Assembly (NCBI RefSeq): GCF_000760295.1
Contig: NZ_JNBA01000012.1
Coordinates: 1-64,000, forward strand
Direction: 5' to 3'
Origin: Prochlorococcus sp. MIT 0701
Lineage (GTDB): Bacteria; Cyanobacteriota; Cyanobacteriia; PCC-6307; Cyanobiaceae
DNA length: 64,000 nt
The position numbers and the translations under genes are program-made. Positions 1 through 15,803 of this stretch are shown here, in pieces. Below the pieces are notes generated by a model. It did no database searches, was not told where the DNA came from, and saw only the letters and a program-made list of their open reading frames with translations. Position 1 is the stretch's first letter. Every line of letters begins with the position of its first letter.

Positions 1-31
1 AATGCAACGCAAGCTGGATCGTCAGCATTGA
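1..31 (+). CDS. 3' end of a second PLD-like gene (partial, cut by window edge)
   Basis: The first 26 bases are identical to positions 37574-37599, the last codons of the phospholipase-D-like lipoprotein gene at 36231-37634, and read in the same frame (MQRKLDRQ). Here the frame ends H-stop, with TGA at 29-31, whereas the other copy continues for about ten more codons. The rest of the gene lies outside the window, so it could be a full paralogue or a fragment. The adjacent accessory module is on the opposite strand and converges on it. Confidence 0.6.
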   Translation, partial: MQRKLDRQH

Positions 32-40
32 TTGCGTTAT

Positions 41-66
41 GCCCTTGCGTAGGGCTGCGTGATTTT
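41..66 (+). terminator. Possible terminator hairpin after the PLD-like 3' end
   Basis: GCCCT (41-45) and AGGGC (51-55) form a 5-bp stem with a 5-base loop, followed within 8 bases by a short T run. It lies just after the PLD-like stop codon. The stem is short, so this is a weak call. Confidence 0.3.
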
Positions 67-164
67 TCAATCGACGCCCCCTCCTTTTAGGTTCTTCTTA
101 AGTGAATTAATCAAGGTGGCCTCCCAGCCCTCAAAATCATTAGCGGCAGGCCGTTGTTCGTGGT

Positions 165-956
165 TCACCAGGCCGCCAACACTTTTGATACTCCTGTGAT
201 TAATTCCGTTTTTGCTTCTGAGCTAGTTCGCCAGCCGATTGCTACACCGCTGAGCCTTGGCGCTAAAGCTAGAAATTGATCTCGCACCCTGCGACTGCGA
301 TCAAATTGTTTGCTAGTTACATCTGTAACTAACACCACTTCAGCTGCCGCCTGTTGTGCTCTGAGGCGATGAAGTCCACCGCGTGCTCGTTCAATATCGG
401 CTTGTAACACCTCCAGCGATGGAAGCTCAGATGGCATAGCTAATTGCACGGGCGGCTCTGTTTCTTTTTCTTCATGTGCATTTCTCTGTGCTTGATCACT
501 TGCCGCCTGCAAGGTGCTGTTAATGCTTGAAAGCATTAAGCCATATGCATTACTACTCTCAAGCAGCTGTGGTGCAATCGATTGTGCCCAACTCTTCATT
601 AGTTTCTCAAGCAGAGCGAATACTTCCTTCTCTGGAATCTGAATCTGCGCGGTATTACAAAACTTTCTTTCCTCTTCCTGCAGCTGTAGCAATAAAGAAC
701 GGCCTTGCCACCAGAGTCTTTTACGACGTTCTAATGCCAACGCCTGCCGGGGACTGAGTGAACTTTTATCGGCTTGCTCTAATTGATGCCAGACGATCAG
801 CAAACGCTCTAGATCTACTTTTGCTGGACGTCCAGGTTGAATGCAGGCCTGCAATCTTGGTTCGGCCTGCGCAATCCGTCGAAAACTGGTGAGTGGTAGC
901 CCAATGTGGCGAGCAGCTGCTCTAAGGCTCACCACTTGGCAATCAGAACTGCTCAT
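165..956 (-). CDS. Terminase small subunit-like DNA-packaging protein
   Basis: About 263 aa if started at the ATG at 956, whose first base is the last base of the upstream primase stop (TAATG overlap), so the two are probably translationally coupled. The N-terminus looks like a helix-turn-helix (SLRAAARHIGLPLTSFRR). A charged coiled segment follows, rich in E, R and Q, and then a stretch like LEKLMKSWAQSIAPQLLES. That order resembles Nu1/terminase-small-subunit-like proteins, in which a DNA-recognition helix precedes a basic helical region ending in a motif of the type W-x-x-x-I-A-P-x-L. In phage satellites a TerS homologue redirects packaging to the satellite genome. The function is inferred from shape and context; an unrelated DNA-binding protein is possible. 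Confidence 0.45.
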   Translation of the reverse strand: MSSSDCQVVSLRAAARHIGLPLTSFRRIAQAEPRLQACIQPGRPAKVDLERLLIVWHQLEQADKSSLSPRQALALERRKRLWWQGRSLLLQLQEEERKFCNTAQIQIPEKEVFALLEKLMKSWAQSIAPQLLESSNAYGLMLSSINSTLQAASDQAQRNAHEEKETEPPVQLAMPSELPSLEVLQADIERARGGLHRLRAQQAAAEVVLVTDVTSKQFDRSRRVRDQFLALAPRLSGVAIGWRTSSEAKTELITGVSKVLAAW

Positions 957-3520
957 TAAGAGATCCCTTTTCGTGGCCCCCAATGCGGATCATCACCGGC
1001 GTCGATATCCCAACTGCTGCCTTGGACATACCGCTGAGAACTCTGTGGTGTGGTCACAAGATCCATTGCAATGCTGTTGACCTCCGACCTCGGCACCCCG
1101 GCCACACCAACTAGGCCAGAACCTTCTCGCGCTCGATTTGTACCTGCGCACACCACCCCATCAGGCTTTAACTCCCACCTCTGAGTCAACTCTTTTGTTT
1201 TTGATATGTCCGGTGTGACCACAACCGCAGATCCTTTGCTGTTACTTGGATCTTCGCTATGGCCAGTGGCATGGCCATCGGTGTGACCGCTCTGGCCAGA
1301 CTGAGGAGCCCAAAGGCCTGCAAGTCTTTGTCCCCCAGAGACACGACGTCGGCCCCACTCCCAGCCGGCTTGCTCTGCAATTTGCCGCACCCTTGCACTG
1401 AGTTGGTTATTACGACGCTCAACAGGGACACCGAGAAACTCCAGTAAATCAGGGCTTTTCACAGGACCAGGTGTGTGGAGCTTTAAGTAGTCGAGAACCT
1501 GATCAGTCCACGGATCAATCTCAGTGAAGTCACAATTACGCCCTGCAATCGCATCCCGCTCTGATTCATCGCAAACGTCCCATTGAACGCCCACTTGGTA
1601 CTGCTCGACGGCACGAGCCCAGATTGCATCTCGATGCTCCTTCGCCCATGCCAAAGGCAACATCCGATCAGAAATCCGAATGCAAACAAATCGAGTCGAC
1701 CCGGTGGCGTCTCTTAGAGGAGACCCGTTGCTTGTCGCCCAAAATACGAATCGGCGCGGATGACGTTCAGGAGCACGTTCATAGGGAGCGCGGTAGGTGT
1801 CTATCCGCTCAGTCAAAAACGCCTTGAGCTTTTCCTGATCCGCTCGACGAGTAACGCCATCCAGCTCTGCCAGCTCAACCCCCCATGCGGTTCGGCATTT
1901 CATCAACGCATCACGACCTAAGTCCTCAAGACCTTCAGTCCAGTAATCAACTCCAAAAAGAATTCGACCAAGAGCTGACTTGCCCCGCCATTGCGGACCA
2001 ACCAGAACCGGCGTCTGTCTAATGCTGGCACCAGGCTCAAAAATACGAGCAACACCAGAAACTAAATATCGCGACAGAAACGCAGCTGCGATCGGATCAT
2101 CAATTCCCAGCAAGAACCTATCCAGTCGCTGCCACTGCTTCATCGGCAAAGGGTCTACTCGCAGCATCGTCTCGAGATAATCCTGAACAGGGTCAAACTG
2201 GTTCTGCTTTGCGATGAGCTGCAAAGCATCAGAGGTTGCCTCTTTTGGCCAAGTCGCTGCTGACGTCGAAAGCCTCACGTACAGCCTGCCGATGTCATTG
2301 GCTCCCAGAACCTGATCCGCTACATACACATCACCTGTACGGATGTTCAGTCTTGGCTTCCCGCCTAATACCCAAGGCAAGTTGCTAAGGACCTGATCGG
2401 CCTTAAGACGATGACGGAGTCCTGGAAAAAACCTTGCGTCACGTGAGCCCTCCGGTATTGAGGACGATCGTGGTGCAGACTCCTGCCCCTGCTGTTGTCG
2501 CAACCAGAAGCGCTCGCGCCCTGGCCAGCCGGGATCCGGTTCTGACGATCGACTCTCTGCAGATCGCAAAACCTTGATCAGCTCGTCTTCCTCAAGCGGC
2601 GGTTCGCATCGAGCAGCGAATTCACGGACTATCTCTTCTGAACAACCGCTGAACTTGATTCCAGCTGCCCTGGCGGCATTCTCCACTGCCATCGTTCCAA
2701 CGGCCAACCGGAAACACTGGCTGTTGCGATCACCCTCCTGAGCACCTTTCTCCACTAACTGTTCCTGATCTCGACTCAACAAATTCGACAGATCAGGCAA
2801 CTCCTTTGGCTTAGCAATCGCTTTGCTGATCTCTTCAACGGAATACCTAGCCCCAGCAGCATTGGCTATCTGGCATGGCTTGCCTGTCTTCGGGTGAATG
2901 GTGCCGGGCAATCGCATTACCCGGGAGGGATTATTGATGCTGCGATCAGCATCTGCAAAATTCAGCAAGCGCTTCTGCAGATCGCGCCATTGCTCTGGAG
3001 CTAGCGGCTGATCGAGCACCCAATAGCTATGAATGCTCTTATGGCCGGTATCAATCTGAACCGTCGGCTCTGGCAAGCCCAGATCACGCCAGCAGTCCAG
3101 CTGCCATAGCCGACTGCAATCATCGTGCTCAATAAAAACAGCTGGGCATGAAGTAATACTCTTGTCGTTGTCGCCGTTGTTTCCAATGACGGCATAGATG
3201 CTGCGCCCCTCTGATTGCCATTGCTTGATTAGGTGCTGGGAAAGTTTTCCTTTGCGGCCACGATCGTTGTGATTGCCTTTCGGCAGAATCCCACGGATTC
3301 GGGTGGAACTTGGATCCTTCCTCAACAGCTCCAGAAAGCGCTTAATCTGATCAGAGGGGTCCTCCTGAAAGCAACGCTCTAGTGCCAAACGAGCGTCATC
3401 AAACATCTTTAGAGCACTCTCGTCACCAGCTTCAGCAAGGTCACAAAGTTGGCTTACGTTGAATTTTTTGAGATAGAATTGTGTTGAGTCATTGTTCAGA
3501 AGTTTCTTGATTTTGGACAT
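956..3520 (-). CDS. Satellite/phage-type primase-helicase (VapE-like)
   Basis: 854 aa from the ATG at 3520; a TTG lies directly before it. The N-terminal third carries archaeo-eukaryotic primase-like motifs: VFIEHDD, then SIHSYWVL (the S-x-H motif) and NPSRVMRLPGTIH. A linker follows with a PriCT-like region (GDRNSQCFRLAVGTMAVE and a later REFAARCEPPL). The C-terminal half is a VapE/D5-type P-loop ATPase: LVGPQWRGKSAL is the Walker A motif, ELAEL is Walker B-like, and RRFVFWATSN is followed by a D-A-T-G-S-T-R-F segment. Such proteins start and drive replication of phages, satellites and tRNA-integrated islands. It lies between an HTH gene and a TerS-like gene in one apparent operon. No integrase is in view. 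The family assignment is strong; which element it belongs to is inference. Confidence 0.85.
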   Translation of the reverse strand: MSKIKKLLNNDSTQFYLKKFNVSQLCDLAEAGDESALKMFDDARLALERCFQEDPSDQIKRFLELLRKDPSSTRIRGILPKGNHNDRGRKGKLSQHLIKQWQSEGRSIYAVIGNNGDNDKSITSCPAVFIEHDDCSRLWQLDCWRDLGLPEPTVQIDTGHKSIHSYWVLDQPLAPEQWRDLQKRLLNFADADRSINNPSRVMRLPGTIHPKTGKPCQIANAAGARYSVEEISKAIAKPKELPDLSNLLSRDQEQLVEKGAQEGDRNSQCFRLAVGTMAVENAARAAGIKFSGCSEEIVREFAARCEPPLEEDELIKVLRSAESRSSEPDPGWPGRERFWLRQQQGQESAPRSSSIPEGSRDARFFPGLRHRLKADQVLSNLPWVLGGKPRLNIRTGDVYVADQVLGANDIGRLYVRLSTSAATWPKEATSDALQLIAKQNQFDPVQDYLETMLRVDPLPMKQWQRLDRFLLGIDDPIAAAFLSRYLVSGVARIFEPGASIRQTPVLVGPQWRGKSALGRILFGVDYWTEGLEDLGRDALMKCRTAWGVELAELDGVTRRADQEKLKAFLTERIDTYRAPYERAPERHPRRFVFWATSNGSPLRDATGSTRFVCIRISDRMLPLAWAKEHRDAIWARAVEQYQVGVQWDVCDESERDAIAGRNCDFTEIDPWTDQVLDYLKLHTPGPVKSPDLLEFLGVPVERRNNQLSARVRQIAEQAGWEWGRRRVSGGQRLAGLWAPQSGQSGHTDGHATGHSEDPSNSKGSAVVVTPDISKTKELTQRWELKPDGVVCAGTNRAREGSGLVGVAGVPRSEVNSIAMDLVTTPQSSQRYVQGSSWDIDAGDDPHWGPRKGIS

Positions 3521-3528
3521 CAAAGAAG

Positions 3529-3552
3529 CCCCGGGAATGCAACCCTCCGGGG
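3529..3552 (-). promoter_or_regulatory. Hairpin in the leader of the primase gene
   Basis: CCCCGG (3529-3534) and CCGGGG (3547-3552) form a 6-bp GC stem in the minus-strand leader, 9 bases before the primase ATG. A GGAGGG stretch lies at the edge of the stem and loop. The position would allow attenuation or control of ribosome access, but no T run follows, so it is not a standard terminator. The structure is visible; the role is a guess. Confidence 0.3.
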
Positions 3553-3563
3553 TTATTTATTGC

Positions 3564-3839
3564 TCAAGCCCTGGCTGCCAATTTCGAGCAAGCGCCAAAT
3601 GTTTCAATCTCCTCAGCTGGTAGACGCTGGAATACTTCAAACGCCTTCTCGGTGGCATCAGGCTTCCATTGCAGACGGCCTCCTTGGACTAAACCGGACC
3701 AGCGATAATCACGGCCCTCTTTAAAAGGAGTAATCGCACTTCGTCGCATCGCTAATAGCGACTTCACGTGAATCCCAAGCCATTGCGCCATCAATTCAGA
3801 CGAGAGCAAGCCACTAGGGATCAAAGAATGATCATTCAT
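3564..3839 (-). CDS. Small HTH/excisionase-like DNA-binding protein
   Basis: 91 aa from the ATG at 3839 (MNDHSLIPSG). The reading frame stays open upstream to 4196 but there it runs through the iterons and the tmRNA terminator, so the internal ATG is preferred. The core LLSSELMAQWLGIHVKSLL looks like a helix-turn-helix, followed by the K-E-G-x-D-Y-R-W pattern seen in AlpA/excisionase-like and other winged-helix-type element regulators. It is the first gene of the minus-strand module and lies 44 bp upstream of the primase start. A role as excisionase or regulator of the module is inferred from size and position. Confidence 0.55.
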   Translation of the reverse strand: MNDHSLIPSGLLSSELMAQWLGIHVKSLLAMRRSAITPFKEGRDYRWSGLVQGGRLQWKPDATEKAFEVFQRLPAEEIETFGACSKLAARA

Positions 3840-4078
3840 GAGAGTTATGCGGTTTGTATTGACCTGTCGCCGGAACCCGTTCAGCCATTGCTTGAGCCAA
3901 CAGTCAGAGACTGAAACTGCCGGAGGTTGCACTGCTTCGTAGAGCAGCAGCACGAAAAATTTGGGCTTACTGAGGTGTGTTTGGCCGGTTCGGTTGATCT
4001 CCTTAATTATAACTCTTAAAAACGGCACTGCACTACTGGTAGCGTACAGATAATCCCATGAGCACCAGAAGAAGCGTA

Positions 4079-4114
4079 TTTTATCCCGAGTTTTATCCCG
4101 AGTTTTATCCCGAA
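4079..4114 (-). repeat. Three tandem 12-bp iteron-like repeats
   Basis: The unit TTTTATCCCGAG occurs at 4079-4090 and 4091-4102, and with one change (last base A) at 4103-4114. The array lies in the 300-bp gap between the HTH gene start (3839) and the tmRNA terminator. I see no gene in the rest of that gap. Tandem 12-mers upstream of a replication-initiator gene resemble iterons at plasmid or satellite origins; this role is inference. Confidence 0.7.
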
Positions 4115-4142
4115 GGTGTTTCAGACCGAAACACGTGTCCCT

Positions 4143-4173
4143 TAAAACCCCTCTTATAGCAATAAAAGAGGGG
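4143..4173 (-). terminator. Rho-independent terminator of the tmRNA transcript
   Basis: CCCCTCTT (4148-4155) pairs perfectly with AAGAGGGG (4166-4173) around a 10-base loop. On the minus strand the stem is followed by TTTT (4147-4144). It lies just past the tmRNA coding piece and before the accessory module. Confidence 0.75.
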
Positions 4174-4187
4174 CCCTTCCAGGCCCC

Positions 4188-4500
4188 ATGAGTCATTTGG
4201 GTGATAAGGCTGACCTCACCCCATCTCCCTTATTAGGGTCAGGCAGCCACGAGGGCAGGCTGACGGGAGAAACGAACGATGTTGTTCGCAGTTACGGATT
4301 TGCTCTTACCGAGCAGGCTTCAGTCACCCTCCTCATACCCCGTCGAAACCATTGCAGCCCCAAGAAACCTGAAAGAGGAATGGAGCTGAGCGGAATCGAA
4401 CCGCTGTCCGAGACACTGGTGTGGATCACCTAGTCCGCCAAAAGGTGGACACGATCATTCTGACAGGAATGCTGTTCTGTCGCTCAACAACCCGTGGGGT
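4188..4500 (-). ncRNA. ssrA: Circularly permuted two-piece tmRNA
   Basis: Reading the minus strand, the acceptor piece comes first and ends with a T arm (GCGG-TTCGATT-CCGC) and the acceptor strand CAGCTCC plus discriminator A at 4381; CCA is not encoded. After a 19-base spacer the coding piece begins at 4361 with GGGGCTG, which pairs with CAGCTCC over all seven positions (one G-U). GGTTTCGACGGG, typical of tmRNA 5' ends, follows, and then the tag frame. This gene order, native 3' end before native 5' end, is the permuted form known from marine picocyanobacteria and alphaproteobacteria. tmRNA with SmpB rescues stalled ribosomes and tags nascent proteins for proteolysis. The outer ends are approximate. 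The promoter should lie in or beside the 5' end of the divergent methyltransferase gene. Confidence 0.92.
4239..4289 (-). CDS. tmRNA tag-peptide reading frame
   Basis: The resume codon GCG at 4289-4287 starts the frame for ANNIVRFSRQPALVAA, ended by TGA at 4241-4239. The C-terminal A-L-V-A-A is the hydrophobic degradation signal seen by ClpXP-type proteases. From memory, the marine picocyanobacterial tags are of the form ANNIVRFSR(Q/H)AAPVAA, so this one differs in the last third (QPALVAA). Confidence 0.9.
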   Translation of the reverse strand, partial: ANNIVRFSRQPALVAA

Positions 4501-4511
4501 GTAAAAGCTCA

Positions 4512-5636
4512 ATGCAAGCGATCGCCGTACTCCCCCAAGGATTAGAAGAAGAAGGCGCTAAAGAGCTCACCACTCTTGGGGCCAAAGCCGTGCGCCCGCT
4601 CAGACGCGCTGCGGCTTTTGAAGCCAACATGGCCTGCTTCTATCGGCTGCATCTACAAGCGCGCCTGCCATTTCGCCTGCTCAGGGAAATTGCCCAATTC
4701 CCTTGCCGAGGGCCAAAAGAGCTCTACTCAGGTGTGCAATCAGCCTTCGACTGGGAACGTTGGCTGCATCCCTCGATGAGCTTTCGTGTCGATGTCACCG
4801 GCAGCGGCCCTGGCCTCACTCACAGCCACTTCACAGCCCTGCAGGTAAAAAATGCGATCATCGATCTACAACGGCAGCTATGGGGTGAGCGATCTGATAT
4901 CGATCTGCAAGACCCTGCGCTCTGTTTGCATCTCCATCTCAATCGAGATTGTGCCGTCCTGAGCTTGGACGGTTCAGCTGGCAGCCTGCACCGCAGGGGC
5001 TACCGAGCTGCAGTCGGCGCTGCGCCTCTCAAAGAAAACCTTGCCGCCGGACTGATCAGACTCAGCGGCTGGGATGGCTGCGTGCCCTTAGTTGACCCCC
5101 TGTGCGGATCGGGCACCCTGCTGATCGAGGCAGCCAGTATGAAGCTTGGCCTTGCACCAGGGTTAAAGCGTTCTTTTCTCCTAGAAGGTTGGGCAGATTT
5201 CGATCCTCAACTCTGGAGCGAGGAACAAGCACGAGCCAAGCAACGAGAACGCAAAGATCAATCGCTGCCAGTGATCATTGGTTGCGACCGAGACCCCAGC
5301 ATCACAACACAAACAAAAACCAATGTGGCCGAGGCAGGCCTCGGCCATGTTGTAGGCATTCAAACCTGTGATTTTCGCGACCTAGAACTGCCAAAACAGC
5401 CAGGAGTAATGGTCTGCAACCCTCCCTATGGCATCCGAGTTGGCCAGGATGAAGACCTAACCGCTCTCTATGAAAGCTTCGGTCAATACGCGAAAAAACA
5501 TGCCTCAGGTTGGCAGCTGTGGCTGCTGAACGGCAATCCCAGCCTCAGCCGATCACTGCAAATGAAAGCGAGTCGGCGGATTCCAGTCAGCAATGGCGGC
5601 ATCGAATGCCGTTGGCTGAACTACGCCATTCGCTGA
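4512..5636 (+). CDS. THUMP-domain class I RNA methyltransferase (RlmL/UPF0020 type)
   Basis: 374 aa from the ATG at 4512 (MQAIAVLPQGLEEEG); a GTG at 4494 is in frame but lies in the tmRNA acceptor region. The N-terminus has the pattern of the ferredoxin-like/THUMP part of this family. The C-terminal Rossmann domain shows VDPLCGSGTLLIEAA (SAM binding) and VCNPPYGIRV (N-P-P-Y, the amino-methylating catalytic motif). The family makes N2-methylguanosine in 23S rRNA or tRNA; the exact target base cannot be read from the sequence. It is divergent from ssrA. Its last codons (NYAIR-stop) are duplicated at 6198-6216. Confidence 0.85.
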   Translation: MQAIAVLPQGLEEEGAKELTTLGAKAVRPLRRAAAFEANMACFYRLHLQARLPFRLLREIAQFPCRGPKELYSGVQSAFDWERWLHPSMSFRVDVTGSGPGLTHSHFTALQVKNAIIDLQRQLWGERSDIDLQDPALCLHLHLNRDCAVLSLDGSAGSLHRRGYRAAVGAAPLKENLAAGLIRLSGWDGCVPLVDPLCGSGTLLIEAASMKLGLAPGLKRSFLLEGWADFDPQLWSEEQARAKQRERKDQSLPVIIGCDRDPSITTQTKTNVAEAGLGHVVGIQTCDFRDLELPKQPGVMVCNPPYGIRVGQDEDLTALYESFGQYAKKHASGWQLWLLNGNPSLSRSLQMKASRRIPVSNGGIECRWLNYAIR

Positions 5637-5637
5637 A
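5619..5637 (+). repeat. Direct repeat, copy 1 (methyltransferase 3' end)
   Basis: The 19-mer aactacgccattcgctgaa spans the last codons and stop of the methyltransferase gene and recurs exactly at 6198-6216. Confidence 0.9.
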
Positions 5638-6197
5638 CCGCAGGGCAACTTGATCTATCAGCAGCAATCTTCAGATTCACGGCACTTTTTAGAGGCCCTA
5701 ATCATCCAATAAGGTCCCAGAGGTATCAAAGAAAACATCAGCCTGCAATCTGCCAAGCTCTTGCCCTAAAATAAAAGGCAAGCTCACTTGGAAAGATGCT
5801 TAGCCACCTTTTAACGCCTACCAACCTAGTTATTTTTGCTGTTGCATTTACAATCAAACTCCTTGTTGCTGGCTACATTATCTTGAAAGTACGCAAAAGG
5901 ATTGCATGATGACTTGGCTGCTATTAGGAGTGATAGTGCAAGGTGATCTTAAAAATAAAGCCCTAGGCTAAGAAGACGATAACTTACCTTTTGCAATTGA
6001 CGTAATACATCAAATATTACTGCGCTTATTAATCTTTATTGAACAATCTTAAGAGTCGGAACGATGACTCATTGAAGACTGATTAGATCAATTCATGATG
6101 TGTATATTTGATGCCATTTTTTCTGATTGTCGACTCTCATGCCAAGCACACCATTCAAAGCAAGAGAGTCCGTTGCCATTCAGATGTCTTGAATGAA
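5638..6197. other. 560-bp segment between the two 19-bp repeats
   Basis: This segment separates the methyltransferase stop from the convergent YqjE-like gene. It looks AT-richer than both neighbours and contains one credible small ORF (5796-5909). Removing it with one repeat copy would leave two tightly convergent genes, so it reads as an insertion. I see no transposase, integrase or terminal inverted repeat in it. Confidence 0.5.
5796..5909 (+). CDS. Small single-span membrane protein, unknown
   Basis: 37 aa: a short polar start (MLSHLLTPTN), one hydrophobic span (LVIFAVAFTIKLLVAGYIIL) and a basic tail (KVRKRIA), giving an inside-positive C-terminus. GGAAAG lies directly before the ATG, closer than a normal Shine-Dalgarno. 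I do not recognise it as a known photosystem, NDH or toxin small subunit. It is the only plausible gene in the 560-bp insert. A chance ORF is possible, although the span and positive tail argue for a real protein. Confidence 0.4.
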   Translation: MLSHLLTPTNLVIFAVAFTIKLLVAGYIILKVRKRIA

Positions 6198-6216
6198 AAC
6201 TACGCCATTCGCTGAA
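6198..6216 (+). repeat. Direct repeat, copy 2
   Basis: Exact second copy of the 19-mer at 5619-5637. Weaker similarity appears to continue upstream (6175-6197 against the codons before 5619), as if a longer piece of the gene end had been copied and then decayed. It abuts the stop codon of the YqjE-like gene. Confidence 0.9.
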
Positions 6217-6603
6217 TCAATGGCGCCCGAGCACCGCCCGAGTGGTTTTCGACAAACCCTCCAACGTCTGTGGCAAATACGGCCCTTTGGCGAGCTGACC
6301 ACCAAGGCGCAGGCTCACTCCTGCCAAGACAACATCAAGAACTGCGATAGCAAGCAAACCCTTCATCAGACTCCAACCCCAAACCTCCTGCATCCAAAGC
6401 ACCAAAGCCACTTCCACAGCCAACAGCGCCAGAAGCATCAACGTGCCTCCCATGGCCAGGAAAACGCCTCCACTAATCAAACGGCGTTTCTCTCGATCCA
6501 CCTCCTGCAAAGCAATACGCACATGCAGATCCATGACTGAAGCAGCAATCGCAGTCACACGCGCGCCCGCTCCTGATCCGCTTGAACGTTGTTCGTCGCT
6601 CAT
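6217..6603 (-). CDS. YqjE-like phage-holin-family membrane protein
   Basis: 128 aa. After a polar N-terminus comes an amphipathic segment (LHVRIALQEVDREKRRL), two transmembrane spans (about residues 43-70 and 80-100) and a short basic tail. This matches the putative Actinobacteriota/YqjE holin-superfamily layout. Its ATG overlaps the stop of the upstream DUF883-like gene by one base (TGATG), so the two are co-translated, as in yqjD-yqjE pairs. Inner-membrane location is clear; molecular function is unknown for the family. Confidence 0.65.
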   Translation of the reverse strand: MSDEQRSSGSGAGARVTAIAASVMDLHVRIALQEVDREKRRLISGGVFLAMGGTLMLLALLAVEVALVLWMQEVWGWSLMKGLLAIAVLDVVLAGVSLRLGGQLAKGPYLPQTLEGLSKTTRAVLGRH

Positions 6604-7067
6604 CAGGACCGCCGACCTCCGGCGAAAATAACTCCAATCAGTACACCGATTCCAGCAGCCATTGCAACAGCAAGCAACGGTCGCTGCCGCACAGGACGTT
6701 CAATCCGCGGCCGCAGTGTGCTGTTCAGCTCATCGAGAAGCTGCTCGAGCTGCTTCTCCAATGGCTCCAGACTGTCGGCCAGATCCCTGGTGCGGTCACC
6801 AGCAACCTGAAATAGGTCCTCCAGCTGATCACGCACACCATGGCTCGTTAATCCCGAATGCTGTGAAATCACACGAACCATTTCATCAAGGCTGCCTCGT
6901 GTTGCTTCCAGTGTGTCCCAAGCCAAATCTGGCCAATACTCTTGGATCGTGGGCAACAAGCTCTCAAATCGTTCACGGAACCTCTGTTCAGAGGGATCTG
7001 CAGTACGCGAAGGCTCAGTATTGACTTGGGTCTGTTGATCGCCGGATGCGGAATTCTCTGATTCCAT
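6603..7067 (-). CDS. DUF883/YqjD-like membrane-anchored protein
   Basis: 154 aa: an acidic, disordered N-terminus, a helical middle with a coiled segment (LEPLEKQLEQLLDELNSTL), and a C-terminal glycine-rich span (LLAVAMAAGIGVLIGVIFAG) ending GGRRS. The C-terminal span with R-x-P-L-L-A-V-A-x-A-A-G-x-G is the hallmark of ElaB/YqjD/DUF883 proteins, some of which tether ribosomes to the membrane in stationary phase in E. coli. First gene of the pair with the YqjE-like gene. A ribosome-related role here is only inference from the family. Confidence 0.65.
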   Translation of the reverse strand: MESENSASGDQQTQVNTEPSRTADPSEQRFRERFESLLPTIQEYWPDLAWDTLEATRGSLDEMVRVISQHSGLTSHGVRDQLEDLFQVAGDRTRDLADSLEPLEKQLEQLLDELNSTLRPRIERPVRQRPLLAVAMAAGIGVLIGVIFAGGRRS

Positions 7068-7324
7068 GAATTCCAGACGGTTGATCTCAGCCTAGTTAGA
7101 CCTGTGCAGGAGCGAAACCCCCCTGTAGCTGGAATGCATCGAAGCCTGCTGCCTGAATGCCACTGCCACTGCAACCGCAACCATCACCCAGCTCTTCGCA
7201 GTGCATTCATAAGCGTCATTGATTTGCAGAGGATCTGACCTGCTCAAAAGTTGATCAACAATCCTTGGGTATCTCAGAACTCAAAGGATCCTGAGCACTA
7301 CCCCTTGAAACGAATCGCCCCTGA

Positions 7325-7618
7325 CGGAACGACTCCTCTCACAAGGCTTTCGCTCAACTTGCCAGATATGGTGTAGTTGTTGCTACTACCTTCTCCAGAT
7401 CTAGTGCGTTACAACTCCTACATGAACAAAATTCTCCATTGATGGAGTTTATGAGCGATTCCGTAGCTGAACATTTAGGGACTTTGCAACCCATTGTTCC
7501 TCCTCGTCTAGAGCGCATCCGGGAGCAAATCAGTATCCAAGAACTTGAACTAAGCCTGGCTCGCCTTGGCCTCACCTCACCAACCTCTAATGAGCTAACC
7601 GAAGTAATCGCGAGCTGA
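7325..7618 (+). pseudogene. Remnant of an unknown gene, start lost
   Basis: After an in-frame TGA at 7322 the frame stays open for 97 codons to TGA at 7616-7618, with sensible protein composition (a segment like FAQLARYGVVVATTFSRSS and an end like ELELSLARLGLTSPT). The only ATGs are at 7442 and 7451, which would leave 58 aa or fewer. It is most simply a 5'-truncated or frameshifted gene, but a short real protein from 7442 is possible. I do not recognise the family. Confidence 0.35.
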
Positions 7619-7623
7619 AACAG

Positions 7624-7965
7624 CTACTCCACCAGCACGACAATCTTGTTTGCATCGATGAGCATGACTTGACTGGAATCAACTCCAACATTTGCTTGCT
7701 GCCTATAACCACTGAATCAAGCTGATCGATAGTCCCAGATCTTTTACTGCCCACAACAAGCACGCTGAGGCATCCTTGCTTAATCGTGTTCAAAAAATGT
7801 CTAGCAAATACACCCTTTCGCTCAAGCTCTTGTGCTGGCCTCTGGCGACAGATGATGATCTCCTTTAGATCCATCCGTGTAGCTGGCGCTATCGGCAGAG
7901 ATCCTTCTGGAGCCTTATCAAGGCTTAGCGGAAGCGAAGGTGATGCAAAAGATAGTAAAGAACAT
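7624..7965 (-). pseudogene. Frameshifted gene for a small secreted protein
   Basis: From an ATG at 7965 the frame reads a signal-peptide-like start (MFFTIFCITFASA) and hits TGA after 15 codons. A second frame then continues smoothly (SLDKAPEGSLPIAPATRMDLKEII, in two parts, and later VLVVGSKRSGTIDQL), and the original frame resumes near 7690 to end VMLIDANKIVVLVE-stop at 7624. Two compensating frameshifts in about 110 codons point to a decayed gene. Function not recognised. It sits next to another remnant, so 7.3-8.0 kb seems to be an eroding region. Confidence 0.4.
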
Positions 7966-8118
7966 AAAGCGAGATTTTACCAAGCAAGGGAATGCTAAAA
8001 ATTCCATCTATAAATAACAATTTTAGAGCCTTATACCAGTGCAGTTTACCCCTAAATTTTTACTCTGCTTGGCAAGAATTAGGACTCAGCTAAAATCAAC
8101 AAGTCTTCCAAGAAAACA

Positions 8119-8334
8119 TTAGCTATATTCTCCAGGTACATCCTGTTTCCTGACGGTCACTCGGTCCACCTTTTGTCCTGAGATCCGCAGCAGCTCATCA
8201 CCTGAGAATTCATAACCAAGGCCGACAGCAAGGTTTGCCACCTCATCAGCCGTGGAAGCACTTAAGACCTGCTGGCGCAGGTCAGAATCATCCTGCATTT
8301 TGATAAGAAAGGCTCGGAGTTGCTCGAGGGACAA
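8119..8334 (-). CDS. Orphan Nif11-type short protein
   Basis: 71 aa. Residues 1-48 match the Nif11 leader-peptide pattern: MSLEQLRAFLIKMQDDSDLR, then a helix with V-A-N-L-A-x-x-L-G-Y-x-F-S-G-D-E-L. In MIT9313-type strains this domain serves as the leader of lanthipeptide precursors (prochlorosins). Here there is no G-G or G-A cleavage motif and the 22-residue tail (RISGQKVDRVTVRKQDVPGE) has no cysteine, so it cannot be a lanthipeptide substrate. No LanM-type enzyme is in the window. It is probably a stand-alone Nif11 protein or a precursor that lost its core. Confidence 0.75.
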   Translation of the reverse strand: MSLEQLRAFLIKMQDDSDLRQQVLSASTADEVANLAVGLGYEFSGDELLRISGQKVDRVTVRKQDVPGEYS

Positions 8335-8702
8335 AATTTAGAGAACAAAGGCTTCAGACAATGATATTCAAAACCATCCTGCGATGCTAAAAAGATCAAG
8401 TTTTACAAGGCAAGATAGCTTGACCATCCCTTTGCAAAGAGACATACCTTAAGGCTGCCCAAATCCGACACCAAAGCAAAGGCACTAAAACGCAGTCGCT
8501 GGTCAAGAAGAAACCTACAGAAGAGACCGTATATGCGCAGCCTCATCTACTACATCAATCATTAGTACTGATCAATTGCACTTCCGCTTTCACGATGAAC
8601 AGAGGGATGCGAGCTATTAAAGATCGCAAACATCAATACAAGGCCGATCAATACTGGATCTATTACTGATTCAACTAAGCTAATGCAATTAGGTTTTTCT
8701 CT
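8335..8702. other. Intergenic region, no gene seen
   Basis: About 370 bases between the Nif11 gene start and the phosphoesterase-like gene. AT-rich, with no credible ORF, RNA gene or strong hairpin by eye. It probably carries promoters for the two divergent flanking genes. Confidence 0.4.
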
Positions 8703-9077
8703 CTGAATAGATTCGTCCTATTGGAACATCGTGGAGCGCCGAATGATCCGCTCGGGTGTCATTTTGATTTGCTCCTAGAAGACGGCCCCGCATGTCGAAC
8801 CTGGCGATTGCCGCAGATCCCACGATTAGATGGTCCAGCGGTAGAAGCCATTCCTCTAACAGTCCATAGGCTGGCTTGGCTGGATCATCATGACGCCGCC
8901 GTCTCAGGGGGACGCGGTTGGGCTAGACGCATCATCGGCGGACTGTTCAGCGGCTCCCTGCCTATCGACTGTGAAGATCGCTTGAGTGTGCGCCTACAAA
9001 GCACTGATCTGGAGGGGCACTTGGAGATCAAACACAGACTCTGCTGGATCAGATCCGAACCGAGGGCGAACCCTTGA
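8703..9077 (+). CDS. LigD 3'-phosphoesterase-like protein
   Basis: About 118-124 aa. The frame is open from 8679. A TTG lies at 8721 and a CTG at 8703; the conserved-looking RFVLLEH segment before 8721 favours the upstream start. HFDLLLEDG followed by C-x-T-W-R-L-P resembles the H-x-D-L-x-L-E...W-x-x-P core of the 3'-phosphoesterase domain of DNA ligase D, which trims 3' ends in end joining. The protein is shorter than a typical stand-alone domain (about 150 aa), and the later basic G-G-R-G-W-A-R-R segment is unusual. It ends 51 bases before smc and may share its transcript. The function is inferred from a short motif only. Confidence 0.5.
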   Translation: MNRFVLLEHRGAPNDPLGCHFDLLLEDGPACRTWRLPQIPRLDGPAVEAIPLTVHRLAWLDHHDAAVSGGRGWARRIIGGLFSGSLPIDCEDRLSVRLQSTDLEGHLEIKHRLCWIRSEPRANP

Positions 9078-9128
9078 GCTTCAAAAAAAATTCGGTAAAG
9101 TTGCCTTGCTGAGAGCCCGTGCAACCTG

Positions 9129-12100
9129 TTGGTTCACATCAATCAGGTTGGGCTTACGCAGTTCAAGTCCTTTGGGGGGTCGATGACCATCCCCCTCGAA
9201 GAGGGCTTCACAGTCGTCACAGGCCCCAACGGTTCTGGCAAGAGCAACATCCTCGACGGCGTTCTCTTCTGCCTTGGTCTTGCCACAAGCAGGGGTATGC
9301 GAGCAGATCGACTGCCTGACCTTGTCAACAGCCGCATCCTTCGAGCAGGCAAGGCAGCTGAAACCGTGGTGAGTGTGCGCTTCGACCTCAGCGACTGGCA
9401 GCCCGATCCAGCCGAGGCAGGTCTGGAGCCACCAGAGGAAGGTCCTTGGATCAAAGCTGATCAAAAAGAGTGGACCGTTACCCGCCGCCTGCGGGTCATG
9501 CCTGGCGGCTCCTACAGCACGAACTACAGCGCCGATGGCGAACCCTGCAACCTGCAGCAACTTCAAACCCAGCTGCGCCGACTGAGGATCGACCCAGAAG
9601 GCAGCAATGTTGTGATGCAAGGCGATGTGACCCGCATCGTCTCAATGAGTAACCGCGATCGCCGCGGCCTGATCGACGAACTGGCTGGTGTAGCACTCTT
9701 CGACAGCCGCATCGAACAGACTCGCTCCAAGCTCGATGATGTTCAAGAGCGGCAGGAACGCTGCCGGATCGTGGAACAGGAACTGCTGAGCACACGGCAA
9801 CGCCTGGAACGAGACTGCGCTAAAGCCCGCACCTACCAGGAACTCCGCCAGCAACTTCAATTGGGTCGGCAACAGGAACTGATGCTGGCCTTTGAAGCAG
9901 CCAAGCAAGGTTTGCGTGATCTTCAAGCACGACACCAACAGCTTGGCGAGCAAGAGGTACACGACGCTGCAAACCTCAAAGAGGCCGAAGAAAAGCTGGC
10001 GAAGGCCGCCGCCAACCTGAAGACGCTGCAAGAGAACGTGAAGGCCCTCGGCGAAGACCAGTTGCTAGCGGTGCAAGCCGAACTGGCGGGATTGGAAACC
10101 CAGGCTCGTGAACTCGAGCGCCAAGCGGAGCAACACCAAAATGAAGGTCAGCGCCTCCAAGGCGTTCGCCAAGACCTAAGTAACCGCCGCAAACAACTGC
10201 AACAGGAGGCTCACAGTCAAACCGAAGATCCCCATCGCGCGGCCTTAGAAGATGCTGAGAAAACCTGCAGAGAGGCCGAAGCCGCTGTAGAGGTCTCCCG
10301 TCGCCGCCTTGGAGACGCCGCCGGTCGCTCTGGTGCTTGGCTTGAGGAACAACGGCAGCGCAGCTCTCGCCGTCAGGAGCTTCAATCCACCCTTACACCA
10401 CTGCAGCAGGAGCAACAACAACTTCAAGAACGCCTGCGACAAGACGGAGCGCGGCGAGTGGAACTCGAAGCAGAGCAGCAGCGTGACGGCACCGAAGACC
10501 AGCAGGTACAGAAACAGCTGGATCAACTCGAACAGGAATGGCAGACACTCCTCCAGAACATCAGCGACAAGAAAGAACAGGTTCAGCAAGCCGCTGAAGC
10601 CCTTGCAGTGCAGCAACGTACCCGCAGTCGACTAGAGCAAGAACAAACCCGCTTGGAAAAAGAAATCGCCCGGCTAGAGAGTCGTCGCGAGACCCTGCAG
10701 GAGAGTCGTGGCACTGGAGCTCTAAGGCTGCTGCTTGAAGCCGGTCTGGAAGGTATCCACGGCCCCGTTGCCCAGCTTGGGGAGGTAGACGATCGCCACC
10801 GACTTGCTTTGGAAGTCGCTGCGGGTGCACGACTCGCTCAAGTCGTCGTAGACGACGATCGCATTGCCGCCAAAGCCATCGAACTGCTCAAAAGCAGGCG
10901 AGCAGGCCGGCTCACCTTCTTGCCTCTCAATCGCATCAAAGCACCTGCAGCTAGCAGCAATAGCGCCCTAACTCGAGGCCGAAAGCCAGACAACGTTGAT
11001 AGCAGCACTGGGCTGATCGGCAAAGCCTTTGAGCTGGTTCGCTTTGAGCCCATTTATGCCGAGGTCTTTGCCTACGTCTTCGGCGAAACTTTGGTCTTTA
11101 GCAACCTGAAATCTGCCCGGCTGCAGTTGGGACGAACTCGAGCCGTAACTCTTGATGGAGAACTGCTAGAGAAGAGCGGTGCCATGACAGGCGGCAGTTT
11201 TTCCGGTCGTAGCAACAGCCTTAGCTTTGGTAGCAGCAACGATGGAGATGAGGCCGAACCCCTACGCCGCAGGCTTCTTGAACTTGGAGAAACCTTGGTG
11301 GCTTGCCGCAGAGAGGAAGCTCTCCTCAGCCAACTCCTCGAGGAAGCTCGCCCCTGCCTAAGAAATCTTGAACAGCGCCAAGCCGCTCTGGAAGCCGAAC
11401 GCAGCGCAGCCCGCCGCTCCCATGGCCCCTTGATGGAGAGACGTCATCAACGCTCTCAAAAAGTGGAGGGGCTACAAGCGCATCAAAAACAACAGCAGCA
11501 GCGACTGAACGCTCTCATCGAAAAGCTGTCTCCCCTCACCCTTGAACTGCAGCAACTGGAACAACATGAGCAGGAAGCCCAGGCGGATGGCGATGCAGAG
11601 ACATGGCAACGATTACAAGCGGATCTTGAAGCCGCCGATGAAGCACTTGGGACAGCCAAAACGAATCGGGATCAGTTGCTGACTGCTCAGCAGCATCGCC
11701 ACCTCGCCCTCGAACGCCTAGGCGATCAACAAAAGGGCCTGGAGGCTGAGGAAAAAAGACTGCAGGAAGCCGTCCAGGCGCTGGCAACTGCCCATGCTCA
11801 ATGGCGTGACCAGCAGCAAGAACTGCAAGCGCGAAAACAAACACTAGAGAGCCAACAACAAGACCTACAGACTCGCTTTGGCGAACAACGGCGCGCCCGC
11901 GATGCGGCTGAAGCAGAAGTAGCAAACCAGCGCCAAGGCCTACAAGAGGCCCAGTGGAACCTGGAACGCCTCCGACAGGATCGCCAAGCCCTGGCCGAAG
12001 AGCTTCGCAGCGGCGGCCTCCGACTCAAAGAACTCCAACAAGCCTTGCCAGACCCTCCCCCGGAGATCCCCGCAGAGCTTCGCAGCGCAGGACTTGAGGC

Positions 12101-12737
12101 CCTTCAAACCGATCTGCAGCAGCTTCAAAGCCGTATGGAAGCCCTGGAACCAGTGAACATGCTGGCGCTTGAAGAACTCGAACAACTCGAACAACGACTC
12201 GGAGATCTGGTCGAAAGGCTTGAGGTTCTCTCCCAGGAGCGAGAAGAACTCCTACTGCGCATCGAGACCGTCGCCACCCTTCGTCAGGAAGCCTTCATGG
12301 AAGCTTTTGAAGCAGTTGATGGTCATTTCCGTGACATCTTCGCCAGCCTCTCTGAGGGCGATGGCCACCTACAACTCGACAACCCTGACGACCCCCTCGA
12401 AGGCGGCCTCACCCTGGTAGCTCATCCCAAAGGCAAAGCAGTGAGACGCCTTGCGGCTATGTCTGGTGGAGAAAAATCGCTTACGGCACTCAGCTTTCTA
12501 TTTGCTCTTCAGCGCTTCCGCCCATCTCCCTTCTATGCCCTCGATGAAGTGGACAGTTTCCTCGATGGGGTGAATGTGGAACGCCTTGCTGCTCTGATCG
12601 CCCGCCAAGCAGAACAAGCCCAGTTCATGGTTGTGAGCCACCGCCGACCAATGATCGGCGCCTCCAACCGCACCATCGGGGTAACCCAGGCCCGTGGAGC
12701 TCACACTCAAGTCGTGGGATTACCCAATGCGGCGTGA
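9129..12737 (+). CDS. smc: Chromosome segregation protein SMC
   Basis: 1202 aa from a TTG start (MVHINQVGLTQFKSFGG), close to the usual ~1200 aa. Walker A is TGPNGSGKSNILDGV (about residues 31-45). Two long coiled coils rich in E, Q, L and R flank the hinge (about residues 540-690, around LEGIHGPVAQLGEVDDRH). The C-terminal head has the ABC signature AAMSGGEKSLTAL and Walker B FYALDEVDSFLDG. SMC dimers with ScpA/ScpB organise and segregate the chromosome. The coils are unusually glutamine-rich, as in other marine picocyanobacteria. No scpAB gene is nearby. Confidence 0.97.
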   Translation: MVHINQVGLTQFKSFGGSMTIPLEEGFTVVTGPNGSGKSNILDGVLFCLGLATSRGMRADRLPDLVNSRILRAGKAAETVVSVRFDLSDWQPDPAEAGLEPPEEGPWIKADQKEWTVTRRLRVMPGGSYSTNYSADGEPCNLQQLQTQLRRLRIDPEGSNVVMQGDVTRIVSMSNRDRRGLIDELAGVALFDSRIEQTRSKLDDVQERQERCRIVEQELLSTRQRLERDCAKARTYQELRQQLQLGRQQELMLAFEAAKQGLRDLQARHQQLGEQEVHDAANLKEAEEKLAKAAANLKTLQENVKALGEDQLLAVQAELAGLETQARELERQAEQHQNEGQRLQGVRQDLSNRRKQLQQEAHSQTEDPHRAALEDAEKTCREAEAAVEVSRRRLGDAAGRSGAWLEEQRQRSSRRQELQSTLTPLQQEQQQLQERLRQDGARRVELEAEQQRDGTEDQQVQKQLDQLEQEWQTLLQNISDKKEQVQQAAEALAVQQRTRSRLEQEQTRLEKEIARLESRRETLQESRGTGALRLLLEAGLEGIHGPVAQLGEVDDRHRLALEVAAGARLAQVVVDDDRIAAKAIELLKSRRAGRLTFLPLNRIKAPAASSNSALTRGRKPDNVDSSTGLIGKAFELVRFEPIYAEVFAYVFGETLVFSNLKSARLQLGRTRAVTLDGELLEKSGAMTGGSFSGRSNSLSFGSSNDGDEAEPLRRRLLELGETLVACRREEALLSQLLEEARPCLRNLEQRQAALEAERSAARRSHGPLMERRHQRSQKVEGLQAHQKQQQQRLNALIEKLSPLTLELQQLEQHEQEAQADGDAETWQRLQADLEAADEALGTAKTNRDQLLTAQQHRHLALERLGDQQKGLEAEEKRLQEAVQALATAHAQWRDQQQELQARKQTLESQQQDLQTRFGEQRRARDAAEAEVANQRQGLQEAQWNLERLRQDRQALAEELRSGGLRLKELQQALPDPPPEIPAELRSAGLEALQTDLQQLQSRMEALEPVNMLALEELEQLEQRLGDLVERLEVLSQEREELLLRIETVATLRQEAFMEAFEAVDGHFRDIFASLSEGDGHLQLDNPDDPLEGGLTLVAHPKGKAVRRLAAMSGGEKSLTALSFLFALQRFRPSPFYALDEVDSFLDGVNVERLAALIARQAEQAQFMVVSHRRPMIGASNRTIGVTQARGAHTQVVGLPNAA

Positions 12738-12745
12738 GCTGTTTC

Positions 12746-12771
12746 CTCAAGCCCTTGAGTCAAAATGACTC
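12746..12771 (+). terminator. Overlapping hairpins between smc and the PRC gene
   Basis: CTCAAG/CTTGAG (12746-12751 with 12754-12759) and GAGTCA/TGACTC (12757-12762 with 12766-12771) share bases, so only one can form at a time. No T run follows. They may weaken read-through from smc, but this is uncertain. Confidence 0.25.
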
Positions 12772-12798
12772 GATTCGCCCCCTGTTGAGGGCCTGCGT

Positions 12799-13908
12799 TT
12801 GACGACAAACCCATCCCCGAACGATCCACTGGACAAGGTTCCTAGCGACCGCCTCTGGCTGCGCTCAGAGCTCATGGGCACCGACGTGATCACCCGTGAT
12901 ACCGGACGTCGTCTCGGCGTAGTGGGAGAAATCGTGGTTGATATTGATCGCCGTGAAGTGGTGGCCCTAGGCCTGCGAGACAACCCCCTCACCCGTTATC
13001 TACCCGGCCTTCCACGCTGGATGCCACTTGATCGGATCCGTCAGGTGGGGGACGTCATCCTCGTGGATTCCTCTGACTCTCTCAAAGAGGGTTTCACCCC
13101 AGATCGCTACAGCCGAGTGATCAACTGCCAAGTGATCACAGAATCTGGCCAGCAACTAGGCAGAGTCCTGGGGTTCTCCTTCGACATCGAAACAGGGGAA
13201 CTCACAACCCTGGTGATTGGAGCAATAGGTGTCCCCATATTGGGTGAAGGGGTCTTGAGTACCTGGGAGATGCCGGTAGACGAGGTGGTCAGCAACGGCG
13301 CAGACAGGATCATTGTGTATGAAGGCGCAGAAGAGAAGCTCAAGCAACTGAATAGCGGCTTCCTCGAAAAACTCGGAGTTGGCGGCCCCAGCTGGGAAGA
13401 ACAGGAGCGAGAGCGCTACAGGATGAATCTTGTACCAGTGGAAAACCAGCTCAATTCAGGACAGCCCACAGAACAGGAGCAGCGCCGGCTCCAACCTTCC
13501 ACCACTCAAACCTTTGAGCCGGAAGAGGAACTTGAATACGTTGAAATTGAAGAGCGTCAGCAGGAAGTCATCCCCCAACAGCGCTATCTCGACGAAACAC
13601 CCTCAAGCTCCCCAACGCGCTACCGCAATGACAGAGAAGAAAGAATGACCTTCGAAGAACCTCCTGCCTATGAACAAAGGCCAGTCTTCGAAGAATCAGC
13701 TGCCTATGAACAAAGACGAACCTTTGAAGATCAACAACCGCAAAGACCAAGGCCAGCCTCACGTCGACCTGTTCAGAGCCTTGGTGATCCCCTTGATGTG
13801 GAGCCCCTCGACTTTTCAGTACGTGATCAAGCTGGCCGAGACCGAGATGCAGAGGTGGAGGAGCCGCCACCGCGCCGTAATGGCACCGAACTAGACGACC
13901 CTTGGTGA
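12799..13908 (+). CDS. Tandem PRC-barrel protein
   Basis: 369 aa from a TTG start. The N-terminal ~180 residues contain two PRC-barrel repeats: LWLRSELMGTDVITRDTGRR with G-V-V-G-E-I-V-V-D, and a second unit starting SRVINCQVITESGQQLGRV with G-F-S-F-D. The C-terminal half is low-complexity, rich in E, Q, R and P, with an imperfect repeat around FEEPPAYEQRPVFEESAAYE. PRC barrels occur in RimM and photosynthetic reaction-centre H subunits and usually mediate protein contacts. Cyanobacterial two-PRC proteins of this kind are conserved but uncharacterised. It lies 61 bases after smc on the same strand. Confidence 0.75.
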   Translation: MTTNPSPNDPLDKVPSDRLWLRSELMGTDVITRDTGRRLGVVGEIVVDIDRREVVALGLRDNPLTRYLPGLPRWMPLDRIRQVGDVILVDSSDSLKEGFTPDRYSRVINCQVITESGQQLGRVLGFSFDIETGELTTLVIGAIGVPILGEGVLSTWEMPVDEVVSNGADRIIVYEGAEEKLKQLNSGFLEKLGVGGPSWEEQERERYRMNLVPVENQLNSGQPTEQEQRRLQPSTTQTFEPEEELEYVEIEERQQEVIPQQRYLDETPSSSPTRYRNDREERMTFEEPPAYEQRPVFEESAAYEQRRTFEDQQPQRPRPASRRPVQSLGDPLDVEPLDFSVRDQAGRDRDAEVEEPPPRRNGTELDDPW

Positions 13909-13921
13909 CGTTCGATTCAAA

Positions 13922-14356
13922 TCAAACCTCTGACTGCTCGGAAAAATCAAGCGAAGCGCTGTTCACGCAGTACCTCTGACCTGTAGGAACTGGTCCGTCG
14001 TTAAAGACATGGCCCAGATGAGCCGCACAGCGAGAACAGTTGATCTCAGTACGCTCCATTCCATGACTCGTGTCCTGATGGGTGGTAATAGCACCTGCAT
14101 TTACTCCATCCGAAAAGCTCGGCCAACCAGTGCCTGAATCGAATTTTGTCGCTGAGCTGAATAGTGGGGCTCCACAACAGACACAGCAATACATCCCTGC
14201 TGCCTTGTGGTTCCAATAAGCACCTGTAAATGCTCGCTCCGTGCCTCCCTTACGGGCAACCTGATACTGCTCACGAGTCAACCTGGCCTGCCATTCCTCA
14301 GGGCTGAGCTTGATCCAATCCACTGAATCGGAAGCGGAGGAATCAGACCTGGACAT
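13922..14356 (-). CDS. msrB: Peptide-methionine (R)-S-oxide reductase MsrB
   Basis: 144 aa from the ATG at 14356 ([11 protein letters not shown]), better than the hydrophobic upstream extension to 14398. Zinc-binding CxxC pairs appear as CCVCCGAP and [20 protein letters not shown] and the catalytic cysteine in [11 protein letters not shown] are also present. It repairs methionine-R-sulfoxide in proteins with thioredoxin as reductant, which suits a phototroph under oxidative stress. It follows the LpxB-related gene on the same strand with a 48-base gap. Confidence 0.95.
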
Positions 14357-14404: not shown

Positions 14405-15682
14405 CTAAAAAGCACCGAGAGCTTTGGGCAGCAAACGACGCACCTGCTGAACCAGTGCAGACACAGCCCCAGGTTGCCCACGCAAGCTGCGCAGATCCTC
14501 GCGCAGCCCCCTGAGCCGTTCAGGAGATTCCAGCCAAGCTGACGCCTCATTAGCAATGTCCTGTGGCGAAATTGAGCCCACTCGTTCCGGAACCACCATG
14601 CGTCCAGCAGAAATATTGGGCCAAGCCAGGAATCCATGGCGACGCAGCCGCCATGCACTGAGCAAGACACCAATGCACCAACGCAATCCAGGGAGCCGAG
14701 CCAACAAACCCATCCAGCCATCCCATGCCTGCATCACAGCCAAATGCTGGGTGGGCACGATCACAATCATTGGCAAACCGAGCGCCCCCAATTCGGCCGT
14801 ATTTGCCCCCACAGTGGTAAGAGCTAAATCACATTGGCTCAAGGGACCATGCGCAGGATGGTCCTCTTGGAGATAGATGACCGTGCCGGCCCTGGTGATC
14901 AATCTTCGCCAAGGCTGATCAAGCTCAGCTGGCCTGATCATGGCAATGGCTGAGCGATAGGCAGCAGCAATCGGATTGCTCGAACTCATAAAGCTTTCCA
15001 ACTCCTTCACGCTTGTGGTGGGTGCAACAGGCAGCAAAAACCGACATCCAGGTCGCAGCCGAGCCAATCGATCAGCCGCCTCCAACAGGAAAGGAACCCC
15101 CACGCAGAGCTTGGCCCGTTTAGACCCCGGCAATAAAGCCACCCAGTCGCCTTGTGGCAGCGGAGCTTCAGCTCGTGCAAGACAAGACAAATCCGCCATC
15201 AGGTCCCCCACCACAGTGCAACGTTCCCGGAAACGACGTGGCAGCTGATCCCGCACTTTCGGAGACATCGCAGCAATGCAGTCATTCCAACGAGGCCAGC
15301 GGGCCACCCACTCGGCGTAGGTGAGATGGCGGTAGCCCAAGCGGGCTGAAAGAAGCACGCTCCAGAACTGATCTCCACCAAGGAAAACCACCACTCCTTG
15401 GCGAGGCCATGGCCCATAGCGGCGGGGAAAGAACAACAAATTCCAAAACTGCTGTGCTGGCGTGATCTGCTCAAACTGAATCCATCGCCTAGCCGCATCA
15501 GCCTCCTGTCCTGTGGCATTCGGGCAAGGCACCAACACCAGCCTCAGGTCAATAGGCGAGCTTGCAGCGCGAGGACGCATCAAAATGCTGCGATGCAGGC
15601 TCTCAGCAATGGGTCTAACCCAAGTCGCTAGTTCGCCTGGACCATTGGAAACCAGCACCACCGCCAGCGAAGCGTCCGGCAT
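14405..15682 (-). CDS. LpxB-related glycosyltransferase-like protein
   Basis: 425 aa from the ATG at 15682 (MPDASLAVVLVSNGPGELAT); starts further upstream would run toward the tRNA. The GT-B-like layout shows VSNGPGELATWVRPIAESL at the N-terminus, VALLPGSKRAKL in the middle (the P-G-S-R-like motif of LpxB and related enzymes), and a C-terminal segment with LTTVGANTAELGALGLPMIV, which matches the nucleotide-sugar site of LpxB (a G-T-x-x-x-E-x-x-x-x-x-x-P-M pattern). It lacks the true LpxB start S-A-G-E-x-S-G-D, so I call it LpxB-related. Substrate unknown; cell-envelope glycolipid synthesis is plausible. Confidence 0.65.
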   Translation of the reverse strand: MPDASLAVVLVSNGPGELATWVRPIAESLHRSILMRPRAASSPIDLRLVLVPCPNATGQEADAARRWIQFEQITPAQQFWNLLFFPRRYGPWPRQGVVVFLGGDQFWSVLLSARLGYRHLTYAEWVARWPRWNDCIAAMSPKVRDQLPRRFRERCTVVGDLMADLSCLARAEAPLPQGDWVALLPGSKRAKLCVGVPFLLEAADRLARLRPGCRFLLPVAPTTSVKELESFMSSSNPIAAAYRSAIAMIRPAELDQPWRRLITRAGTVIYLQEDHPAHGPLSQCDLALTTVGANTAELGALGLPMIVIVPTQHLAVMQAWDGWMGLLARLPGLRWCIGVLLSAWRLRRHGFLAWPNISAGRMVVPERVGSISPQDIANEASAWLESPERLRGLREDLRSLRGQPGAVSALVQQVRRLLPKALGAF

Positions 15683-15721
15683 GACAGCTGGAGGGAGTGA
15701 GGTCAAGTTGTAAGGAAAGAA

Positions 15722-15803
15722 TGCGGATGGCGAGACTTGAACTCGCAAGGCCGAAGCCACACGCCCCTCAAACGTGCGTGTCTACCAATTCCACCACATC
15801 CGC
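15722..15803 (-). tRNA. tRNA-Leu(GAG)
   Basis: 82-nt class II tRNA on the minus strand. The acceptor stem GCGGATG pairs with CATCCGC, the D arm reads TGGTGGAATTGGTAGACACG, the anticodon loop TTGAGGG gives GAG, and a long variable arm (GTGGCTTCGGCC) precedes the T arm GAGTTCAAGTCTC. The discriminator is A and CCA is not encoded. It reads CUU/CUC codons. No inserted element is seen at its 3' end. Confidence 0.95.

Follow-up and report, generated by a model that had tools for sequence, protein, structure and literature searches.

Probable ssrA-proximal end of a tycheposon-like phage satellite at a contig terminus in Prochlorococcus sp. MIT 0701

Three uninterrupted genes, all on the minus strand, fill the space between ssrA (4148-4470) and a contig end in Prochlorococcus sp. 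MIT 0701, and they encode an HTH protein, a PrimPol-VapE replicase and a small terminase (TerS), which raises the question of what kind of element they belong to and how much of it is seen. The original prediction was a PICI- or tycheposon-like satellite candidate, perhaps one end of a larger element. ARAGORN, open reading frames (165-983, 956-3523 and 3564-4196) and family matches recovered the primase-helicase, TerS-like and HTH genes beside ssrA, all close to where they had been placed, and the TerS family, the use of ssrA as an attachment site and the absence of the module from a related genome support the candidate. We consider it quite probable, judging from sequence comparison, that this region forms the end nearest ssrA, at least 4.1 kb long, of a TerS-bearing, tycheposon-like phage satellite that has integrated here. 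Coordinates below are those of the window, the whole 64-kb stretch that was analysed (G000:C12:1-64000).

1..26, no strand: contig terminus, with exact 26-bp identity to window 37574-37599, the 3' part of a phospholipase-D-like ORF
77..997, no strand: block 90% identical to a decayed TerS copy at G000:C25:14372-15289, beside tRNA-Ala(ggc)
165..983, minus strand: solitary Nu1-type TerS, 272 aa (phrog_57 match)
956..3523, minus strand: PrimPol-PriCT-VapE helicase replicase, up to 855 aa (Pfam and structure-chain matches)
3564..3839, minus strand: excisionase-like HTH protein, 91 aa (homology and position)
4079..4114, plus strand: three tandem TTTTATCCCGAR repeats at 12-bp spacing (repeat search)
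4148..4173, no strand: hairpin CCCCTCTTATA/TAAAAGAGGGG on the element side of the att core (inverted repeat)
4148..4470, minus strand: ssrA, permuted tmRNA with tag ANNIVRFSRQPALVAA, the integration target (ARAGORN)
4169..4206, minus strand: att core (attL), the 38-bp ssrA 3' end, plus strand AGGGGCCCTTCCAGGCCCCATGAGTCATTTGGGTGATA (alignment with relatives)

Base 1 of the window is the physical end of its contig (G000:C12:1) in an assembly of 2.59 Mb and 53 contigs, and the terminal 26 bp are probably an assembly artefact or chimeric contig tip. No integrase was found in the 4.1 kb between ssrA and the contig end, and the visible end of the element holds no virion structural genes. The earlier remark that the window contains no integrase is thus correct for what can be seen but uninformative leftward, since the contig ends at base 1 and a missing integrase beyond it is an absence of data; that end, together with the habit of related ssrA elements of keeping the integrase at the far end, explains why the window has none. 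Synteny with G001 was tried as a way of finding the contig that continues the window and was rejected, the region being an island scattered over contigs.

The replication and packaging genes

The HTH reading frame stays open to 4196. Its translation probably starts at 3839, since homologous proteins have 88 aa and the frame above that point enters ssrA. The 91-aa protein itself had no family match. With an HTH protein that G010 and G015 carry at the ssrA end it shares 45% identity over 76 aa, and homologues were also found in G229, G238 and both ssrA elements of G161 (the one in element 2 at 38% identity, HMM 3.5e-26). Some of these homologues, including those of G010 and G015, weakly match HTH_17 and the putative excisionase DUF1233, and we infer from homology and position that the window protein is an excision factor (Xis).

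The VapE-type identity first proposed for the primase-helicase was borne out by Pfam matches to VapE (2.3e-49) and PriCT_1 (3.8e-5), by a match of residues 57-229 to the S-2L PrimPol AEP domain (6zp9, 1.5e-37) and by a match of residues 433-616 to the vapE chain 7pds (4.4e-17). A full-length relative adjoins tRNA-Pro in G079, and a close scan of viral contigs matched neither the replicase nor TerS. An in-frame ATG at 956, read from the sequence, overlaps the VapE stop as TAATG and is most likely the TerS start; this overlap suggests translational coupling of VapE and TerS.

The TerS protein matches phrog_57, terminase small subunit (1.4e-6), and its homologues in L082 and L083 (33% and 28% identical) do so independently (2.3e-9 and 2.7e-7), which answers the concern that the TerS-like protein might belong to an unrelated family. 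These PHROG matches are modest; Pfam and NCBIfam gave the protein no name, phage records yielded no match at 1e-5, and a TerS profile search of genome contigs returned only L132, the same record as L083. The structure model is of low confidence (pLDDT 59), and Foldseek found no significant match for it, the best viral hit being a TerS (E 0.067). Members of the satellite group are 257-287 aa long, versus about 185-190 aa in S-2L/lambda-like phages and L155.

The same genes might be what is left of a lambda-like cyanophage prophage, its TerL and structural genes lying beyond the contig end or deleted. The viral contig L155 (IMG/VR 3300034198_020511) does join a PrimPol-VapE relative (53% identity) and a short Nu1-like TerS to a GpA TerL and a lambda-type portal, and the contig end hides whatever follows TerS in the window. 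In L155, however, TerL overlaps the TerS stop, whereas the 164 bp after the window TerS hold no TerL start; none of the TerS homologues in L082, L083 and C25 is followed by TerL, and L083 stops at an att repeat. The placing of Xis and replicase beside ssrA, moreover, is that seen in elements that show no virion genes, and we regard a prophage remnant as improbable. The comparison points to the L155 lineage as a likely phage source of the replicase and TerS functions, and we treat it as a candidate source or helper lineage for the satellite.

P-SS2, a siphophage of MIT9313, was considered as a helper but finds no support, as its TerS belongs to another family (phrog_6299). A TerS in L146 lies beside an HK97-type capsid gene (phrog_57 1.8e-22; Phage_capsid 9.4e-21), and its C-terminal part resembles a segment encoded in the terL-annotated stretch of S-CBS1 and S-CBS3, which is a lead only. 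At L146 8289-15453 (G035:C7), a tyrosine recombinase, the HK97-type capsid gene and TerS make up an element-like cluster similar to capsid-forming satellites.

The ssrA attachment site and matched element ends

G001, a complete genome of the same genus in a single contig of 2,410,873 bp, has a block 94% identical to the ssrA region. Identity stops at window 4145, past the att core the window sequence differs from G001, and the three-gene module is absent downstream of ssrA there, so that related ssrA loci do vary. The att core was defined by aligning seven ssrA 3' ends with five displaced copies, all of which contain variants of AGGGGCCCTTCCAGGCCCCATGAGTCATTTGGGTGATA and lose similarity on either flank. 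Displaced copies of the ssrA 3' end were found in G006, G010 and G015 by an ssrA-region search, with more in G161 and G238, and a tyrosine recombinase adjoins the copy in G010, G015, G161 and G238. By these alignments the ssrA 3' end is an att site in use in related genomes, as had been anticipated for ssrA. The hairpin at 4148-4173 is probably the ssrA terminator. As a separate observation, G017:C8 (L053/L065) carries a second, diverged, near-complete tmRNA (12289-12557 and 15527-15786), 3 kb from the first.

The iteron-like repeats reported between the HTH gene and ssrA are real. Their core, TTTATCCCGA, occurs in three exact copies at 4080-4113 and nowhere else in the window (chance expectation 0.07), and the TTTTATCCCGAR repeats are probably integrase arm-type (or Xis) sites. 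In related ssrA elements, a short repeat particular to the element lies just inside both ends. In G010, TTTGTCCTAA is present at both ends and links two contigs as the two ends of one element. The single-contig genome G161 has two elements in tandem at ssrA, each with its own integrase and matched end repeats (L078 (G161:C1:371000-390900) 5096-13961, on to L150 13530-13565). Element 1 spans about 9 kb from ssrA to a displaced att and has VapE, an integrase beside attR and, at either end, TTTGTCGGAA repeats. Element 2 covers about 19.5 kb, with cargo, the homologue of the window's Xis-like HTH gene and an integrase beside attR; TTTATCCCGA occurs three times where it starts and twice where it ends, next to the second displaced att. 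In the 169 loci fetched, the double form TTTATCCCGANNTTTATCCCGA is confined to the window sequence and the two ends of G161 element 2, from which we infer that the window element uses a related integrase and that its missing end bears these repeats too. In viromes and fragmented genomes, the ssrA 3' end combined with TTTRTCC-type repeats offers a simple marker by which both ends of an element of this sort can be located.

Elsewhere at ssrA, about 27 kb separates ssrA from the displaced att in G238, an interval with integrase and VapE, and G229 has ssrA, Xis-like and PrimPol genes in the window's order, followed by a transposase. TerS homologues occur in elements at tRNA genes. L083 is complete in about 5.4 kb, comprising tRNA-Val, integrase, AAA ATPase, TerS and a perfect 45-bp tRNA repeat. 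The 22.6-kb tRNA-Pro element of G164 (L144/L082, G164:C2:66022-88739), bounded by a 59-bp tRNA repeat, reads tRNA-Pro, Xis-like HTH, DUF3854/D5 primase-helicase, TerS, regulator, cargo, integrase, tRNA repeat. Its cargo, named from reading the translations, includes a multicopper oxidase, RND-type metal efflux, MerR and a sensor kinase, and the element carries these alongside the solitary TerS. A first reading of the G164 element as integrase-less was rejected, since an att copy and an integrase lie 22 kb away.

Complete satellite or remnant

No second att copy was found in the G000 assembly, even allowing 3 mismatches over 23 bp, and recombinases of the ssrA-element integrase family exist in G000 but none near this locus; this copy may accordingly have decayed to a remnant. 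Loss of the distal end would leave an immobile satellite, compatible in origin and design with the reading we prefer, and the absence of attR and an ssrA-type integrase from a 99.98%-complete assembly points that way, as does the plainly decayed TerS copy on C25 of the same genome, which carries in-frame stops. Against decay, no damage is seen in the three ORFs, the att core or any of the three repeats, and a contig break at exactly this place fits a repeated or multi-copy end; we judge immobility a possibility, though on balance a rather unlikely one.

The C25 copy is homologous as far as window 77, 88 bp past the TerS gene, and C25 there has GGCTCCA, as at the tRNA-Ala end. A minimal satellite might then end at about window 77, lack an integrase and borrow the recombinases of other elements in trans. 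The 7-bp match is weak, however, window 1-77 holds no att copy of ssrA, and the G164 element turned out to have its own integrase, all of which make such an arrangement very improbable. The tRNA-Ala(ggc) region (G000:C25:13980-15289, L004) is itself a variable site, at which G002 (L092) has a frameshifted integrase and PrimPol. Use of the C25 flank as an empty-site test was rejected, as sequence beyond tRNA-Ala varies in all relatives.

If the region is indeed one end of a tycheposon-like satellite, its unassembled far end would encode a tyrosine recombinase that recombines attP with the tmRNA 3' end, and the element would bring a replacement ssrA 3' end and terminator, leaving ssrA functional. 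The TTTATCCCGA repeats would act as arm sites, matched at the opposite end, and the HTH protein beside them would serve as excision factor, working with the distal integrase. After excision, PrimPol-VapE would let the element replicate autonomously by priming and unwinding it. The solitary TerS, of Nu1 type, would pair with the GpA-type TerL of a lambda-like siphophage, whether infecting or resident, and this pairing would direct packaging of the satellite into helper phage particles. The element has its own replicase and a phage packaging subunit, so particles of other viruses are its probable vehicle. Were this right, gene exchange among ocean picocyanobacteria would be tied to phage packaging at one specific locus.

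We also offer, tentatively and as something we hold to be possible rather than expected, that the long (257-287 aa) Nu1-type TerS is a satellite-specific packaging adaptor of picocyanobacterial elements that are otherwise unrelated, with differing replicases and att sites. Large cargo islands, including metal-resistance islands, would then be transducible by lambda-like cyanophages.

Comparison with known satellites

Tycheposons are reportedly tyrosine-recombinase elements of picocyanobacteria that sit at tRNA-type genes and combine a replication module with variable cargo, and some are said to carry TerS. The window element resembles them in its picocyanobacterial host, in its tyrosine-recombinase relatives at ssrA, in its replication module and in TerS. 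It pairs that module with an excisionase (the replicase by its matches, Xis by homology and position), and it is variably present, as its absence downstream of ssrA in G001 indicates. It differs in that its target is the tmRNA and that only one end is seen; seven tRNA genes are listed as tycheposon targets (PMC10872708), and tycheposons are also cited in PMC10803314 and PMC11389934.

With PICIs/SaPIs the element shares an Xis-like HTH, a VapE-domain primase-helicase (nearest solved chain 7pds), a solitary TerS (as in L082, L083 and C25) and no virion genes in view. It differs from them in that no integrase is visible in the window and the PrimPol is of S-2L type, and in G164 the TerS family is accompanied by long metal-resistance cargo. 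PICMIs are likewise marine, minimal satellites, with int, alpA and primase genes at fis and without TerS (PMC10803314), whereas the window element lies at ssrA and has TerS. S-2L, which has a homologous PrimPol, is a phage, and L155, alike in VapE and Nu1-type TerS, is a phage contig in which, in contrast to the window, a GpA TerL adjoins TerS. The tycheposon or phage-satellite kind is already known; what is new is this ssrA-sited, incompletely assembled member of it.
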